From the NCBI RefSeq assembly GCF_019345465.1, contig NZ_JAHKRC010000017.1:1-64000 (forward strand): a stretch of 64,000 bases of DNA, read 5' to 3'. The DNA comes from Pseudomonas sp. NKUCC02_KPG (GTDB taxonomy: Bacteria > Pseudomonadota > Gammaproteobacteria > Pseudomonadales > Pseudomonadaceae). Position numbers and translations under genes: made by a program. Position 1 is the first letter of the stretch. The number at the start of each line of letters is the position of its first letter. This document shows, piece by piece, positions 12,279-48,478 of the stretch. The notes beneath the pieces are model-generated. The model saw nothing but the letters and a program-made list of their open reading frames with translations, had not been told where the DNA came from and made no database searches.

Positions 12279-13979
12279 TCAGAACAGAAAGTAGCGCTGT
12301 GCCATCGGCAACACATCAGCCGGTTCACACCACAGCAACACACCGTCGGCCTTGACCTGATAGGTCTGGGGGTCGACTTCGATCCTGGGCAAATAACCGT
12401 TGTGAATCAGGTCGGTTTTTTGCACATCACGGCAGCCCTTGACCACCGCGATTTGCTTTTGCAAACCCAGCGCTGCGGGTACGCCTGCGTCGAAAGCGGC
12501 CTGGCTGATAAAGGTCAGGCAGGTGGCATGGCGCGAGCCACCGTAGCTGGCGAACATCGGGCGGTAATGCACGGGTTGCGGGGTGGGGATGGAGGCGTTG
12601 GGATCACCCATCAGGCTTGCGGCAATGGCGCCACCCTTGAGGATCAGCGTGGGCTTGACCCCAAAAAACGCCGGGCGCCACAGCACCAGATCGGCCCACT
12701 TGCCCACCTCGATCGACCCCACTTCATGGCTCACGCCGTGGGTGATGGCCGGGTTGATGGTGTACTTGGCGATGTAGCGTTTGGCGCGGAAGTTATCGTT
12801 GCCCACGGCATCTTCGGGCAATGGGCCGCGCTGCTTCTTCATTTTGTCGGCGGTCTGCCAGGTGCGGGTGATCACTTCGCCCACCCGGCCCATCGCCTGG
12901 CTGTCGGAGCTGATCATCGAGAACGCGCCCAAGTCATGGAGGATGTCCTCGGCGGCAATGGTTTCGCGGCGAATACGGCTTTCGGCGAAAGCCACGTCCT
13001 CGGCGATGCTCGGGTCGAGGTGATGGCACACCATCAACATGTCGAGGTGTTCGTCGATGGTGTTGCGGGTAAAGGGCCGGGTCGGGTTGGTGGAGCTGGG
13101 CAGCACATTGACCAGGCCGCAGGCCTTGATGATGTCCGGCGCATGGCCGCCACCGGCCCCTTCGGTGTGATAGGTGTGGATGGTGCGGCCCTTGAAGGCG
13201 GCGAGGGTGGTTTCGACAAAGCCCGACTCGTTCAGGGTGTCGCTGTGAATCGCCACTTGCACGTCATACAGGTCGGCGACATTCAGGCAGTTGTCGATGG
13301 ACGCGGGGGTGGTGCCCCAGTCTTCGTGCAGCTTGAGGCCGATGGCCCCGGCCTCGACCTGTTCGATCAGCGGTTGCGGCAGGCTGGCGTTGCCCTTGCC
13401 GGTAAAGCCCATGTTCATCGGGAACGAATCGGCGGCCTGGAGCATGCGCGCCATATGCCAGGGGCCTGGGGTGCAGGTGGTGGCATTGGTGCCGGTGGCC
13501 GGGCCGGTGCCGCCGCCGATCATGGTGGTGACGCCGCTGTTGAGCGCTTCTTCGATCTGCTGCGGGCAGATGAAGTGGATATGGGTGTCGATACCGCCTG
13601 CGGTGAGGATCATGCCTTCGCCCGCGATCACTTCGGTGCTGGCGCCGATGGCAATGGTCACATTGGGCTGGATATCCGGGTTGCCGGCTTTGCCGATGGC
13701 GTGGATGCGACCGTTCTTGAGGCCCACATCGGCCTTGACGATGCCCCAGTGATCGATGATCAGTGCGTTGGTGATCAGGGTGTCGACCACCTCGCTGGCG
13801 AGCAGCTGACTTTGGCCCATACCGTCGCGAATCACTTTGCCGCCGCCAAACTTCACTTCTTCTCCGTAGGTGGTGAAGTCCTGCTCGACCTCGACCCACA
13901 GCTCGGTATCGGCCAAACGAACCTTGTCACCTACGGTGGGGCCGAACATGTCGGCGTAGGCCTGACGGGATATTTTCAT
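12279..13979 (-). CDS. ureC: Urease alpha subunit UreC
   Basis: The catalytic subunit of urease, which hydrolyses urea to ammonia and carbamate at a two-nickel centre in the cytoplasm. It has 566 residues from [23 protein letters not shown] 13979 has AGGA 7 bases upstream. All active-site residues are visible: nickel ligands His133 and His135 (THIHF), the carbamylated Lys216 (GLKLHED), His245, His271 and Asp359, and the flap Cys318-His319. Each is one less than in the Klebsiella enzyme. It is the last gene of the urea operon; a family B repeat lies between ureB and ureC. Confidence 0.99.
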
Positions 13980-44208: not shown

Positions 44209-44306
44209 TGTAGTCGCTGAGGAGCGGAGCGAGGCTGCGAGGGGTTGCGCAGCGACCCTGCTTGAAGGTCCTTCGGCCCTTATCGCAGCCTGCGGCAGCG
44301 ACTACA
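44209..44306. repeat. Family B repeat after cobJ
   Basis: TGTAGTCGCTGAGGAGCGGAGCGAGGCTGCGA on the left and TCGCAGCCTGCGGCAGCGACTACA on the right. The arms come from two subtypes (GAGGAGCGG versus CGGCAGC), so they pair only at their ends. It lies 8 bases after the cobJ stop. Confidence 0.85.
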
Positions 44307-44391
44307 CGTGGTGTTCAGGCCTTGGAAATCAGTCATTTCGTACGACGTTTCGCTTTCATTCTCGTGAAACATCCGAGAAGATTCCGCTCGC

Positions 44392-44420
44392 TTGCGCCTG
44401 TCCATTTCGGGGAATAGTCT
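44392..44420 (+). promoter_or_regulatory. Possible sigma-70 promoter for the DUF6124 leader
   Basis: TTGCGC (44392-44397), 17 bases, TAGTCT (44415-44420). It has ideal spacing and modest matches. The predicted start is within a few bases of 44427, where the first hairpin of the leader begins. Confidence 0.35.
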
Positions 44421-44426
44421 CGGCCA

Positions 44427-44640
44427 ATCGCTGCAAAATCAGCGATCGGGTTTAGTAGCCCGGCTTTAGTGTTTGGCGCAAGGCGCCACCTTTTCGAGGC
44501 GCTTTTTTACGGCCTGCGTTTTATGGTGGCCGTGCGCAGGGTGCCCTCGGGCACGCCGGTTCCCAAACACGCCGGTCTACTAACCTGTGCACGGCTGCCA
44601 CCCATTTGTTTAGTAGCGAAAAGTGGCAGCTCCCTTAACG
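44427..44640 (+). ncRNA. Structured leader RNA upstream of DUF6124 gene
   Basis: About 214 bases of dense complementarity. A 7-bp hairpin ATCGCTG/CAGCGAT spans 44427-44446. A long-range helix pairs 44452-44464 with 44571-44583 (12 of 13 positions) and stacks on a perfect 8-bp helix, 44469-44476 with 44563-44570. Inside are ACGGCC/GGCCGT (44509-44514, 44528-44533) and GTGCC/GGCAC (44541-44554). A final hairpin GCTGCCAC/GTGGCAGC (44594-44601, 44623-44630) holds in its loop TTTAGTAGC, an exact repeat of the 5' arm at 44451-44459. CTACTAA (44577-44583) can therefore pair with either copy, and the second choice makes a pseudoknot. It ends 16 bases before the coding start. I do not recognise a named family. 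Confidence 0.6.
44483..44508 (+). terminator. Terminator-like hairpin within the leader
   Basis: GCGCC, 10-base loop, GGCGC, then TTTTTT (44503-44508): an intrinsic-terminator layout. Its 5' arm can also pair with GGCGC at 44475-44479 (3-base loop), a possible antiterminator. This hints at transcription attenuation ahead of the DUF6124 gene. The stem is only 5 bp. Confidence 0.45.
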
Positions 44641-44656
44641 TGTTTGGAGTTAAGCC

Positions 44657-45004
44657 ATGAAAAAAATCACCCCCGATCCCCCTGCTTTACCCCTCGATGC
44701 TGCTGACAGTCACGACCCGTTGCTGGATCGTGCCGCCGTCGAACGTGCGCTCAATTACTACCTGCAAAACCATAAGCCTTATCGCCCTATAGGCACGGCC
44801 ATGCTGGCCATCCCGAACAGTGTCAATTCAGAAGCGGCTTTGGCCCAGGCGTCAGACTTGTTGCGCTGTGCGGGTGCCTGCGCGAATGAGGTGGGGAATG
44901 GCTTGAGCGGGCCTGCGCGCGATTTGGTGTTGTCGGTCATGCACCTGGTGGAGCTGGCCAAGGGGTATGTCGACAAGTCGCTGGACACGCTGGCAACGCA
45001 CTAA
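44657..45004 (+). CDS. DUF6124-family protein
   Basis: A 115-residue cytoplasmic protein of the Pseudomonas-specific DUF6124 (formerly DUF3077-like) type, function unknown. It has an acidic/proline N-terminus (MKKITPDPPALPLDAADSHD) and a middle block LDRAAVERALNYYLQ. Two predicted helices follow, SEAALAQASDLLRCAGACANEVGNGL and ARDLVLSVMHLVELAKGYVDKSL. No catalytic motif or signal peptide is visible. GGAG lies 7 bases before the ATG. It is a single gene, preceded by the long folded leader. Such genes are often multicopy in Pseudomonas as I recall, which could be tested by search. Confidence 0.8.
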   Translation: MKKITPDPPALPLDAADSHDPLLDRAAVERALNYYLQNHKPYRPIGTAMLAIPNSVNSEAALAQASDLLRCAGACANEVGNGLSGPARDLVLSVMHLVELAKGYVDKSLDTLATH

Positions 45005-45010
45005 GGCAGC

Positions 45011-45036
45011 ACGCGCCTGATTGGCGACAGGCGCGT
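45011..45036. terminator. Terminator between DUF6124 and marC genes
   Basis: ACGCGCCTG-8 bases-CAGGCGCGT, a perfect 9-bp stem, lies between two convergent stops (45004 and 45042). There is no long T-run; it probably serves both genes. Confidence 0.6.
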
Positions 45037-45041
45037 CATTG

Positions 45042-45697: not shown

Positions 45698-48478
45698 TTA
45701 GGACAGTTGTGCCGTGGATTGACGCAACTCACGTTGTTCAACCCAAAACTCCACCAGTTCTCGCAGTTGCGACAGTTCTACGGGTTTGGACATGTGGCCG
45801 TCCATGCCGGCCTGACGGGCGCGCTCCTTGTGTTCGGTGAGGATGTGCGCGGTCAATGCGACCACCGGGGTGCGTATGCGCTGATGGCTGACTTCCCAGG
45901 CGCGCAATTGCTCCGTGGCTGAGAAACCGTCCAGCACGGGCATTTCACAGTCCATCAGCACCAGATCGTATTGCCGGGCTTTCATGGCTTTGAGTGCTTC
46001 TTCACCGTTGCAGGCGGTGTCCGGGTTCAGGTTGAGCTTGCCCAGCATGCCGCGAATGACCTTGGTGGAGATGTTGTTGTCTTCGGCCACCAGGATGCGA
46101 AAGTCATTGGGCACTGAAACAGGCACGGCGGCGGGGCCGTTGGCGGTGGTGTGCGCGGTGGCATGGCCCTTGTTGCGTTGGGTCAGCTCATCGGCCAGGG
46201 TGGTTTTGAGGGTGTAGCCGGCCACCGGTTTGGCGAGGATGCGTTTGATCCCGCAGTTGCGTGCAATGATCTTGCTCGGTGCGTTGCTGATCCCCGTGAG
46301 CATGACCAGCAGGATGTCGTGGTTCAGGCTCGGGTCTTCCTTGATTTTGGCGGCCAGTTGCATGCCGGTCATGCCGGGCATGTTCTGGTCCAGCAGCACG
46401 ATGTCGAAGTAATCACGCAAGTGGGCCTTGGTGCGCAGCAAGGCCAGGGCTTCCTTGCCCGATGCCGCAGCACTGACATTCAAACCCCAGGCGCAACATT
46501 GCTGTACCAGCACTTTGCGGCAGGTGTCATTGTCGTCCACCACCAGCACCCGTGCGCCCTTGAGCGGGCTGTCCAGGTCGGAAGTCGGGTGCTCAAGGTG
46601 TTGCGGGTCCAGGGGCAGTGTCAGCCACAGGTTGCTGCCGGTGGTTTGTCCGGGCTTTATGCCGAATTCACCGCCCATCAACATGATCAGCTGGCGAGCG
46701 ATCACCAGGCCCAGATGGCCTCCCAGGCGGGTCGCGGCGAGGAAGTTCTTGCTGTGCAATTCGGCGTGCAACAGGGCATCACGCTCCTGTTCATCCATCG
46801 GTTGGCCAGAGTCCTGAATGGCAATGCGCAGTCGCGGCGGGCCACTGCGTTCCTCCAGTGCGACAACGATGAGGATCTCGCCCTCGTCAGTCTTTTTCAG
46901 GGAACTTTCGAGCAGGCTCAGCAGTGTTTGGCGCAAACGCGTAGGGTCACCGCTGATGACCCGTGGCACTTGTGGCTGGATAAAACTGATGAGTTCGACG
47001 TTCTGCTGTTCGGCCTTGGTGCGAAAAATACTCAGGCAGTCTTCGATCAGGGCATTGAGATCGAATTGCACGTCATCAAGCTCGATTTGCCCCGATTCGA
47101 GCTTGGAAATATCGAGAATTTCGTTAATCAGTGTCAGCAGTTCGTTACCCGCACTGTGGATGGTCTGGACGTAGTCCCGTTGCTTGACCGACAGCGGCGT
47201 GCCCAACAGTAGCTCGGTCATGCCCAGCACCCCGTTCATGGGGGTGCGGATTTCATGGCTGATCTTGGCCAGAAACTCGGCCTTGGCATTCACTTCGGCA
47301 TTACTGGCGGCCAGCTCGCGGCTAATACTGAATTGGGCCTGGGTAATGCTGCGGTTGCGCTCGCTCAGGGCGATGCTCATCAGCAACCCGCTGATGCAGA
47401 TGATCACCATCAGGGCCAGGACCAGCTCCTGCGGCGCGATAAGGGTCAAGCCCAGCAACGCGGGGAGAATCACCAGGGTGCCGATGTTGAAAATCACCAT
47501 CGCCATGACAAACATGCGCGCGGGCCGATAGCCCTTTTGCCAGTGGTAGACCGAGACGGCCAGGATGCTGACGCTTGCCAGTCCGACCAGGGCGTAGGTC
47601 ATCACGTTCAGCGGCAGATTATCGATAAACAGGAGCAACAGGCCGCCGAGGCCGATGATCAGGATATCCAGCAGCAGCAGCTTGTGCAGCCGGTGCGCAC
47701 CACGGGTCGAGAAAAAGCTGTAGGTAAACATCAGCCCGCAAGGGGCTGTCAGCAGCAGCGTCAGGTACGCGCCGGGGGTCTGGATGGCGTGCCAGTCAGG
47801 GAGCCAGGGGTCCAGCAGGTTCAGGAACAGCGCCGAACTGGCCATCAGCAGGATTTCACAGATGGCCAGCCACAGGCTGCTGGGCGAACGGCTGAAGGCG
47901 AAGCGAATAAGGTTGTGCAGCAACAGCATCGACATGCAGCCCAGCAGCAAGCCATAGAGCAAGGGCTTGGTCTGGTTGGCAGCCAGCATGACGGCAGTGT
48001 CGAGGGTAATGTGGGGGCGCAACTGATGGTCCGAGACCATGCGCAGGTAGACATCCAGAGGTTGTGAGCTTTGGGGCAGGGGCAGCAGGTAGTCGCTGCT
48101 GGGCACGGGCTTGCTGTTGATGGGCAATGCCGTGCCGGTGTTGGTCTGGCTGATCAGTTTTTGATCATCGAAGACATACATGTCGAGGTTTGCCAGATCG
48201 GGGGCGAATATCCGCAGGATCTGTTCATGCTTGTCGGGTTGCAGGTGTACCCGCAGCCACAGGGCTTCGCCGGGTTCTGCAGCGGCTATTCGGTCGAGTT
48301 CGACAGGGCTGAACTGGCTGGATAGCCGGGGTGAGCGCACATCACTCAGTTGCAGGGTAGCCTGAGGGTCTGGCAATACAGACCAACTGGTACCTGATGC
48401 AGCCTGCACAGGCATCATGCCGAGCACAGAGCCCAGCAACGTGATGGTAAAAGCTATGGCGATCCTGAGCCAGCGCAC
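45698..48478 (-). CDS. retS: Hybrid sensor RetS
   Basis: RetS is an inner-membrane hybrid sensor that blocks GacS by direct binding, keeping RsmY/RsmZ low and favouring motility and virulence over biofilm. The 926 residues contain a signal segment (1-27), a periplasmic 7TMR-DISMED2 domain (about 30-165), seven membrane helices (about 172-372), HisKA with KISHEIRTPMNGVLG (His408), an HATPase-like region, and two receiver domains with Asp697 and Asp843. The HATPase N-box asparagine is missing (SLLESSLKKT at about 521-530) and the G1 box reads DSGQP, so kinase activity is doubtful. It lies beside purD as in PAO1. Confidence 0.93.
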   Translation of the reverse strand: MRWLRIAIAFTITLLGSVLGMMPVQAASGTSWSVLPDPQATLQLSDVRSPRLSSQFSPVELDRIAAAEPGEALWLRVHLQPDKHEQILRIFAPDLANLDMYVFDDQKLISQTNTGTALPINSKPVPSSDYLLPLPQSSQPLDVYLRMVSDHQLRPHITLDTAVMLAANQTKPLLYGLLLGCMSMLLLHNLIRFAFSRSPSSLWLAICEILLMASSALFLNLLDPWLPDWHAIQTPGAYLTLLLTAPCGLMFTYSFFSTRGAHRLHKLLLLDILIIGLGGLLLLFIDNLPLNVMTYALVGLASVSILAVSVYHWQKGYRPARMFVMAMVIFNIGTLVILPALLGLTLIAPQELVLALMVIICISGLLMSIALSERNRSITQAQFSISRELAASNAEVNAKAEFLAKISHEIRTPMNGVLGMTELLLGTPLSVKQRDYVQTIHSAGNELLTLINEILDISKLESGQIELDDVQFDLNALIEDCLSIFRTKAEQQNVELISFIQPQVPRVISGDPTRLRQTLLSLLESSLKKTDEGEILIVVALEERSGPPRLRIAIQDSGQPMDEQERDALLHAELHSKNFLAATRLGGHLGLVIARQLIMLMGGEFGIKPGQTTGSNLWLTLPLDPQHLEHPTSDLDSPLKGARVLVVDDNDTCRKVLVQQCCAWGLNVSAAASGKEALALLRTKAHLRDYFDIVLLDQNMPGMTGMQLAAKIKEDPSLNHDILLVMLTGISNAPSKIIARNCGIKRILAKPVAGYTLKTTLADELTQRNKGHATAHTTANGPAAVPVSVPNDFRILVAEDNNISTKVIRGMLGKLNLNPDTACNGEEALKAMKARQYDLVLMDCEMPVLDGFSATEQLRAWEVSHQRIRTPVVALTAHILTEHKERARQAGMDGHMSKPVELSQLRELVEFWVEQRELRQSTAQLS

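Follow-up and report, generated by a model that had tools for sequence, protein, structure and literature searches.

A leader of the immI type with a C4 antisense RNA upstream of a DUF6124 gene in Pseudomonas sp. NKUCC02_KPG, very probably one copy of a chromosomal cassette family

We analyzed a 64,000-nt stretch of the genome of Pseudomonas sp. NKUCC02_KPG (positions 1 to 64,000 of contig NZ_JAHKRC010000017.1), which is called the window here. It contains a gene for a 115-aa DUF6124 protein behind a long leader, with a CbiG_N/tetrapyrrole-methylase gene (cobJ) upstream and a MarC gene on the opposite strand downstream. An initial annotation had described the leader as a regulatory RNA whose pairings exclude each other and which precedes a gene of unknown function, and in this it was right. 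The following features were found at the locus:

44329..45040, plus strand: whole dispersed cassette, comprising the likely promoter, a1/b1, C4, a2/b2, the DUF6124 gene and an end hairpin (from the ends of shared similarity)
44337..44352, plus strand: element TTCGTACGACGTTTCG with palindrome TCGTACGA near the left end, a possible operator (from motif occurrence)
44414..44421, plus strand: likely -10 promoter element ATAGTCTC (from enrichment of a TATAGTCT-like motif and a similar -10 in phage P1)
44414..44466, plus strand: a1/b1 target RNA element, Rfam c4-a1b1 (RF03163; 62.9 bits, gathering threshold 46.7)
44451..44459, plus strand: a1 box TTTAGTAGC, complementary to a'
44469..44476, plus strand: b1 box GTGTTTGG, complementary to b'
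44475..44509, plus strand: GGCGC/GCGCC/GGCGC-T6 terminator-like hairpin, overlapping an alternative hairpin that begins in b1 (read in the sequence; match to the isrK model)
44519..44605, plus strand: C4 antisense RNA (RF01695; 82.3 bits, gathering threshold 45)
44563..44570, plus strand: b' loop CCAAACAC, pairing with b1 and b2
44576..44583, plus strand: a' strand TCTACTAA, of which CTACTAA (44577-44583) pairs with a1 and a2
44594..44630, plus strand: alternative hairpin of the C4 3' arm with GTGGCAGC, a2 displayed in the loop (8 of 8 pairs)
44609..44617, plus strand: a2 box TTTAGTAGC (pairing with a'; own-versus-foreign test)
44640..44647, plus strand: b2 box GTGTTTGG, overlapping the Shine-Dalgarno GGAG at 44646-44649 (pairing with b'; own-versus-foreign test)
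44657..45004, plus strand: DUF6124 gene, 115 aa (PF19619; 50.4 bits, cut-off 27)
45011..45036, plus strand: end hairpin ACGCGCCT...AGGCGCGT, right end of the cassette (arms conserved)

A letter-by-letter check of the helices proposed in the initial annotation bore them out: the long helix (44452-44464 with 44571-44583) is paired at 12 of 13 positions, and both the 8-bp helix (44469-44476 with 44563-44570) and the last hairpin (44594-44601 with 44623-44630) at 8 of 8. The second copy of TTTAGTAGC is also real, this sequence occurring on the plus strand of the window at 44451 and 44609 only. A further repeat had gone unnoticed, namely that of GTGTTTGG. This sequence, which forms the 5' strand of the 8-bp helix, recurs at 44640-44647 over the Shine-Dalgarno GGAG and has one more distant copy in the window at 46924. 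Since TTTAGTAGC and GTGTTTGG each recur downstream, both boxes flank the C4 RNA on each side. The terminator-like hairpin, with its T6 at 44503-44508, can be read in the sequence but is absent from the list of a consensus terminator scan, which returned three terminator-like sites in 1.8 kb against 1.5 expected; few other loci have structures resembling it. As calculated with ViennaRNA, the leader folds at -102.5 kcal/mol compared to a mean of -81.7 for shuffles (z -4.3) and surpasses all 200 dinucleotide shuffles. The TATAGTCT-like motif (at least 6 of 8 positions), which was picked after the loci had been seen, lies upstream of C4 in 69 of 105 loci and at control offsets in 12 to 19 of 105. 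A 63-aa frame overlapping the leader (44469-44660) was rejected as a leader peptide, Pfam and PHROG giving no match.

In a full Rfam scan, the C4 match extends over the full model (1-87) and both it and c4-a1b1 exceed their thresholds, and isrK (RF01394) matches marginally at 44427-44508 (50.2 bits, threshold 50). The initial annotation had recognised no described class, and a match to a known family is the outcome that it had itself set against its reading. With respect to membership of RF01695, a' and b' are complementary to the linked target boxes, and GG stands at one of the two expected processed-end positions in all 105 C4 loci. In the "long helix", the antisense strand (a', b') is paired with its upstream target (a1, b1). 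This helix competes with the stem of C4 itself, and this pairing in cis is predicted to be slightly better than the C4 stem (-100.7 kcal/mol unconstrained versus -96.8 with the C4 stem forced, in a folding run separate from that above).

The order of parts in the leader is the same as in immI of phage P1 (a1 b1 - c4 - a2 b2 - icd - ant; record AF234172), and the two also have in common the two inner hairpins of C4 and the position of b2 at the ribosome-binding site. The annotated -10 of P1 c4 is TATAGT, and the likely -10 of the window is of a similar kind. Counted from the end of C4 (its core in the window taken as 44524-44600), a2, b2 and the start codon lie at +9, +40 and +57, close but not equal to a2, b2 and the icd start of P1 at +4, +33 and +51, whereas a1 and b1 (-73 and -55) are nearer to C4 than in P1 (-88 and -74), by 15 and 19 nt. 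Unlike P1 immI, the module of the window is chromosomal and present in many copies, and the place of icd is taken by DUF6124. Homology of DUF6124 to P1 Icd was rejected, no similarity being detectable. P1 immI also contains ant, whereas no such gene adjoins here, the next one being the MarC gene. A further likeness, drawn from the Rfam model with its marginal score, is to isrK of Salmonella Gifsy-1, in which a1/b1-like hairpins are likewise followed by a terminator; the DUF6124 gene downstream is a difference. The immunity RNA of satellite phage P4 is of the C4 type and controls replication genes, whereas the C4 of the window precedes a DUF6124 gene.

According to the available portions of two reports, in P1 and P7 b' occludes the ribosome-binding site, a' provides specificity and RNase P trims the precursor (PMC5320573, PMC12197685). 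The presence of the C4 class in Proteobacteria, including Pseudomonadales, has been published, as the available text of PMC2864571 and PMC5320573 indicates. In the latter, Acinetobacter baumannii AB5075 is described as having 21 Group 1 C4-like sRNAs, multi-copy and chromosomal, for which RNA-seq shows expression and apparent processing at GGW. It thus resembles NKUCC02_KPG in having many C4 RNAs with a variable a' loop on one chromosome (PMC5320573, available portion). The same portion of that report leaves their targets open and describes no linked cognate target or gene, whereas here each C4 was tested against its own linked boxes.

The genome of NKUCC02_KPG has eight C4 RNAs, each followed after 51 to 55 nt by the start of a gene, and five DUF6124 matches, four of them above the cut-off. 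Seven of the eight C4-linked genes were scanned, and they comprise three DUF6124 genes (one frameshifted), one DUF3077 gene and three without a Pfam match. In L006, the C15 copy, the A run after the DUF6124 start codon is one base shorter, so that the frame is broken, and the C4 is intact. No C4 was found in the scanned flanks of two DUF6124 genes of this genome, one of which is below the Pfam cut-off. Beyond this genome, C4 was detected in 54 of the 59 genomes of a same-genus sample (0 to 54 copies each), in 28 of the 39 genomes and 16 of the 19 genera of a family sample, and in six of the 94 genomes of a class sample. These six include NKUCC02_KPG, the sole genome of the class sample with DUF6124; the other five have one to three C4 copies each. 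None occurs in 14 control genomes. The expansion of C4 is therefore mainly one of the Pseudomonas family of bacteria. A laxer scan gave 55 C4 loci in genome G049 and 42 in G005, the two large sets used below. As a separate observation, a 3.2-Mb genome of another genus in the family sample (G083) has 15 C4 matches among only 63 first-look candidates, perhaps an independent expansion. In other gammaproteobacteria, C4 precedes a gene of the SymE toxin type (L231; 48.8 bits, cut-off 29) and a 205-aa Bro-N protein (L230; 35.2 bits, cut-off 25.6). In L228, a C4 is followed by a small protein with weak similarity to CsrA (16.8 bits, below the cut-off of 27).

The other outcome that the initial annotation had set against its reading, a lack of conservation in front of further DUF6124 genes, did not occur: a C4 lies just upstream in 28 of the 29 DUF6124 loci found in named Pseudomonas genomes with peptides of the window protein, L061 being the exception. 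It is likewise upstream of all 11 relatives on viral contigs, which may be host flanks because several are near contig ends. In G049, 54 linked ORFs (one of the 55 loci has none) include 32 DUF6124, three Bro-N and two DUF3077 (E 0.01) members; these Pfam counts come from G049, not G005. Three of the linked members match phage anti-repressor families, and these are presumably the Bro-N ones. A gene start at a median of 51 nt past the end of the Rfam match was obtained for 54 of 55 loci in G049 and 40 of 42 in G005, a count that is biased because the start-choosing script favoured starts near 51; at 39 loci where the start was set by protein match, the distance is 46 to 69 nt.

To score the codes, every C4 loop was compared with all linked regions in its own genome, and the best uninterrupted pairing (G-U allowed) was taken. 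For b' and the Shine-Dalgarno region, the own and foreign means are 18.8 and 12.2 in G049 (55 loci), 19.2 and 12.4 in G005 (42 loci), and 19.9 and 12.4 in NKUCC02_KPG (8 loci). The own mean was reached by 0, 0 and 1 of 10,000 permutations, respectively, and that of a' with a2 by 0, 0 and 6; for the upstream boxes, no permutation was as good in G049 and G005, and 71 (a') and 69 (b') were in NKUCC02_KPG. These counts serve as a guide and not as strict probabilities, since related loci are not independent. In a second set of 36 distinct loci (39 less three duplicates), own pairings average 22.3 and foreign ones 14.2, with 0 of 10,000 permutations as good. Thus, the C4s match their own downstream boxes beyond chance. 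Privacy of the code is incomplete. By run score, 18 of 55, 19 of 42 and 6 of 8 C4s (G049, G005 and NKUCC02_KPG) pair strictly best with their own Shine-Dalgarno region, and since this is only a part of them, cross-talk is likely. By duplex energy in NKUCC02_KPG, six of eight C4s upstream and five of eight downstream rank their own target first in the row, with L008, L010 and L011 having better foreign downstream partners. The b' loops form 36 clusters among 55 loci (the largest with 11), 25 among 42 and seven among eight. Weak own fits were seen in L044/L083 (5 bp) and L170 (6 bp), and the best pairing run of L136 lies upstream of its Shine-Dalgarno.

The codes also change. Three near-identical cassettes of NKUCC02_KPG vary at 30 of the 61 columns in boxes (27 of 36 in the b boxes) versus 67 of 646 other columns, the box columns having been set by hand after viewing the alignment. 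Between G049 and G005, 17 pairs of loci are syntenic on both flanks (32 one-flank pairs were excluded), and 14 remain after dropping three that involve the ambiguous L121. Among these 14, b' is kept in nine and changed in five. In all five the partner box has changed as well, and swapped pairings fall below both cognate ones in 10 of 10 cases, the closest being b' of L128 on L149 (19.6 versus cognate values of 20.7 and 25.7); two of the cognate fits, those of L170 and L136 noted above, are poor. Paralogue pairs keep b' in 3 of 44 cases compared to 9 of 14 orthologue pairs, a comparison given little weight because the groups are not matched for age. For the proteins, the pooled dN/dS is 0.12 over 12 of the 14 gene pairs (in two, the gene is too short), so the linked proteins tested are under purifying selection. 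The codes thus change in a coordinated manner, and the proteins are conserved.

The nearest named relative of the window DUF6124 protein is in Pseudomonas psychrophila (98% identity). The predicted structure of DUF6124 is helical (mean pLDDT 77.7), and a fold search was uninformative (best PDB match E 1.8, best viral match E 0.4). By sequence, DUF6124 is likely homologous to DUF3077; homology to the L008 protein of NKUCC02_KPG was not detected. One of the two DUF6124 genes of NKUCC02_KPG with C4-free scanned flanks (L206, 9329-10468) is divergent from a gene for a repressor with HTH and S24-peptidase domains, and the genes around it look like ones for amino-acid catabolism. Three observations hint at a role as a phage regulator or a growth-affecting protein, namely the Bro-N members, the C4 that precedes a SymE-type gene and the S24 repressor next to one DUF6124 gene; we regard this as a lead and not as a result. 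Phage records gave no match for the window DUF6124, an N-terminal piece of a G049 DUF6124, a DUF3077 protein or the C4 DNA of the window, the last being an insensitive search with 87 bases. Among plasmid records, three Pseudomonas plasmids have weak DUF6124 matches. DNA resembling the leader at 72 to 76% identity is present on four Pseudomonas plasmids (NZ_LR822050.1, NZ_AP022475.1, NZ_CP135972.1 and NZ_CP014061.1), and therefore the module seems to travel on plasmids as well.

The limits of the cassette were examined by comparing the window with 17 loci, taken from near relatives and from viral contigs. Similarity begins at 44318-44337 in 14 of the 17 (L052 and L053 reach 44199 and 44209 via a REP-like block, and L061 begins at the gene) and stops at 45036-45041 in 14 of the 17, the other three running off their contigs. 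None of the 17 has the cobJ-marC flanks of the window. The sites are not all independent, as L052 is at the C12 site and L056 at the C15 site of NKUCC02_KPG. TTCGTACGACG is found in 13 of 14 printed left ends, and both arms of the hairpin ACGCGCCT...AGGCGCGT are exact in 12 of 13 printed right ends, L209 having one change. The exact 16-base TTCGTACGACGTTTCG occurs in NKUCC02_KPG in the three full cassettes only, and the left motif does not characterise the cassettes of G049 and G005. As a general operator it was rejected, its short form being no commoner than a reversed control in G049, G005, G486 and G258. At the cobJ-marC site, seven relatives were aligned: six lack the cassette and have 59 to 173 bases separating the flank matches, and the seventh matched on a single side; in further relatives the gap exceeds 1 kb. 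Paralogue similarity in G049 and G005 (26 and 18 pairs) ends at medians of about -206 and +400 around C4, and these ends scatter widely, so that sharp ends are established for near relatives only. No transposase is present inside the cassette and no target duplication was seen by eye in the printed ends and empty sites; as regards an insertion sequence or MITE, it is the common ends that are present. The copy numbers of the repeats R200, R26 and R178 of Pseudomonas fluorescens, as given in the available portion of PMC2718517, invite the idea that one of them corresponds to the C4 cassettes. The REP-like block just upstream of the window cassette (44209-44316) has parts repeated at several further positions of the genome and is carried in the C12 copy.

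Taken together, it is very probable that the leader is an immI-type C4 antisense module and one copy of a chromosomal cassette family, whose members seem to use codes of their own to silence the linked genes. We infer that a single transcript would run from the promoter through a1/b1, C4 and a2/b2 into the DUF6124 gene. Its C4 part would form a long stem that encloses two hairpins and, by analogy with P1 and A. baumannii and in keeping with the 5' GG, would be excised as an RNA of about 77 nt. The b' loop could then pair with b2 over the Shine-Dalgarno and the a' strand with a2, and translation of DUF6124 would be blocked as a consequence; complementarity and covariation are seen for these pairings. 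Pairing with a1/b1 on the same or the next transcript would probably add early termination or titration. An RNA that arises as a by-product of the operon would thus keep its DUF6124 gene silent. Many operons would each carry their own code, the cassette family having presumably spread within the Pseudomonas family, with the code boxes changing together after copying. Co-folding limited to nested pairs stabilises C4 with either target by no more than 1 to 2 kcal/mol over the separate folds and does not predict the a'/b' pairing; since loop-loop contacts are beyond this model, it is evidence neither for nor against them.

The C4 class is known, and what is unusual here is its scale in Pseudomonas genomes. 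In the open-licence literature, we found no publication on DUF6124 or on chromosomal C4 families of Pseudomonas, and a single one on DUF3077, which concerns a different context. The present results link DUF6124, DUF3077 and several unnamed, uncharacterised Pseudomonas protein families to one known control mechanism, and this offers a route to the function of these families. Dozens of natural sense-antisense pairs per genome should be useful for studying how RNA specificities are kept separate, and the target question in A. baumannii gets a testable answer, the first candidate being the gene that follows each C4 after about 50 nt. A bolder idea, which we hold as tentative and think somewhat doubtful, is that Pseudomonas has a mobile, self-insulating library of antisense switches. 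A genome would contain up to dozens of C4 cassettes, and each of these would silence a small protein of its own that resembles an anti-repressor or affects growth. Codes would diverge once a cassette has been copied, since copies with a common code could silence one another. If so, the C4 cassettes together may form a repertoire that senses phages or stress, and DUF6124 and DUF3077 would be the effectors of a heteroimmunity system moved to the chromosome.

Among other explanations, the cassettes may be selfish and resemble toxin-antitoxin systems, with C4 as the antitoxin RNA of a growth-affecting protein and the unit persisting because its loss is costly. This is compatible with the antisense-module reading and has a real, if minor, chance of being correct. 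Sharp-ended cassettes at several sites in near relatives, the C4 before a SymE-type toxin gene in another gammaproteobacterium and the three C4-linked Bro-N genes of G049 agree with it. So do the C4 loci without an open gene of at least 60 aa by our own selection rule (7 of 55, 6 of 42 and 1 of 8), C4 being near or below the Rfam threshold at 4 of these 14. For a type I system, the antisense arrangement is present in the sequence, but DUF6124 belongs to no known toxin family in Pfam or PADLOC, a PADLOC search for defence systems with four proteins gave no match, and toxicity is putative. The two DUF6124 genes of NKUCC02_KPG with C4-free flanks also argue against it.

Alternatively, the main role of the C4s could be in trans, where they would form a permanent stock of RNAs directed at incoming phages or other transcripts, the linked gene being secondary. 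The many copies and many codes would suit such a role, and for A. baumannii the authors raise both possibilities in the available portion of PMC5320573. However, we consider this unlikely: C4s fit their own linked genes, the tested linked genes are under purifying selection, and the phage records searched match neither the C4 DNA of the window, within the limits of an 87-base query, nor DUF6124.

The initial annotation had favoured a riboswitch, attenuator or protein-responsive leader acting in cis, with the long helix and the last hairpin as two states of one sensing molecule. The helices are real, the cis fold has the lowest predicted energy, the terminator-like hairpin after b1 overlaps an alternative hairpin, and the C4 3' arm can pair with the sequence just downstream in 44 of 105 loci. 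For G049 (55), G005 (42) and NKUCC02_KPG (8), in that order, such runs of at least 7 pairs occur in 23, 18 and 3 loci versus 2, 0 and 0 in a control region; own pairing beats foreign in G049 only (1, 704 and 1,129 of 10,000 permutations as good). Nevertheless, this account is very unlikely. No riboswitch family was above threshold in the Rfam scan, and the loops that a riboswitch should conserve are the most variable parts across the three near-identical cassettes of NKUCC02_KPG. Because of this variability and the Rfam matches, riboswitch or attenuator was rejected as the main reading, and the best fit is an antisense RNA flanked on either side by copies of its target. General intrinsic attenuation before C4 was rejected too: terminator-like hairpins occur in just 6 of 55, 7 of 42 and 4 of 8 loci (shuffles 2.5, 1.8 and 0.6) within the 80 nt before C4, where in the window the a1 hairpin was caught and not the T6 hairpin. 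Such attenuation is perhaps an extra of some subfamilies.

That the modules are decaying remnants of prophage immunity regions with no present function is extremely improbable, since, although the module is phage-type and some genes are broken, the pooled dN/dS and the coordinated code change speak against it and the tested neighbours in the window are cobalamin-type and MarC genes, not phage genes.

Far from the leader, the window also has an Rfam match to 5_ureB_sRNA at 13547-13832 (116 bits).
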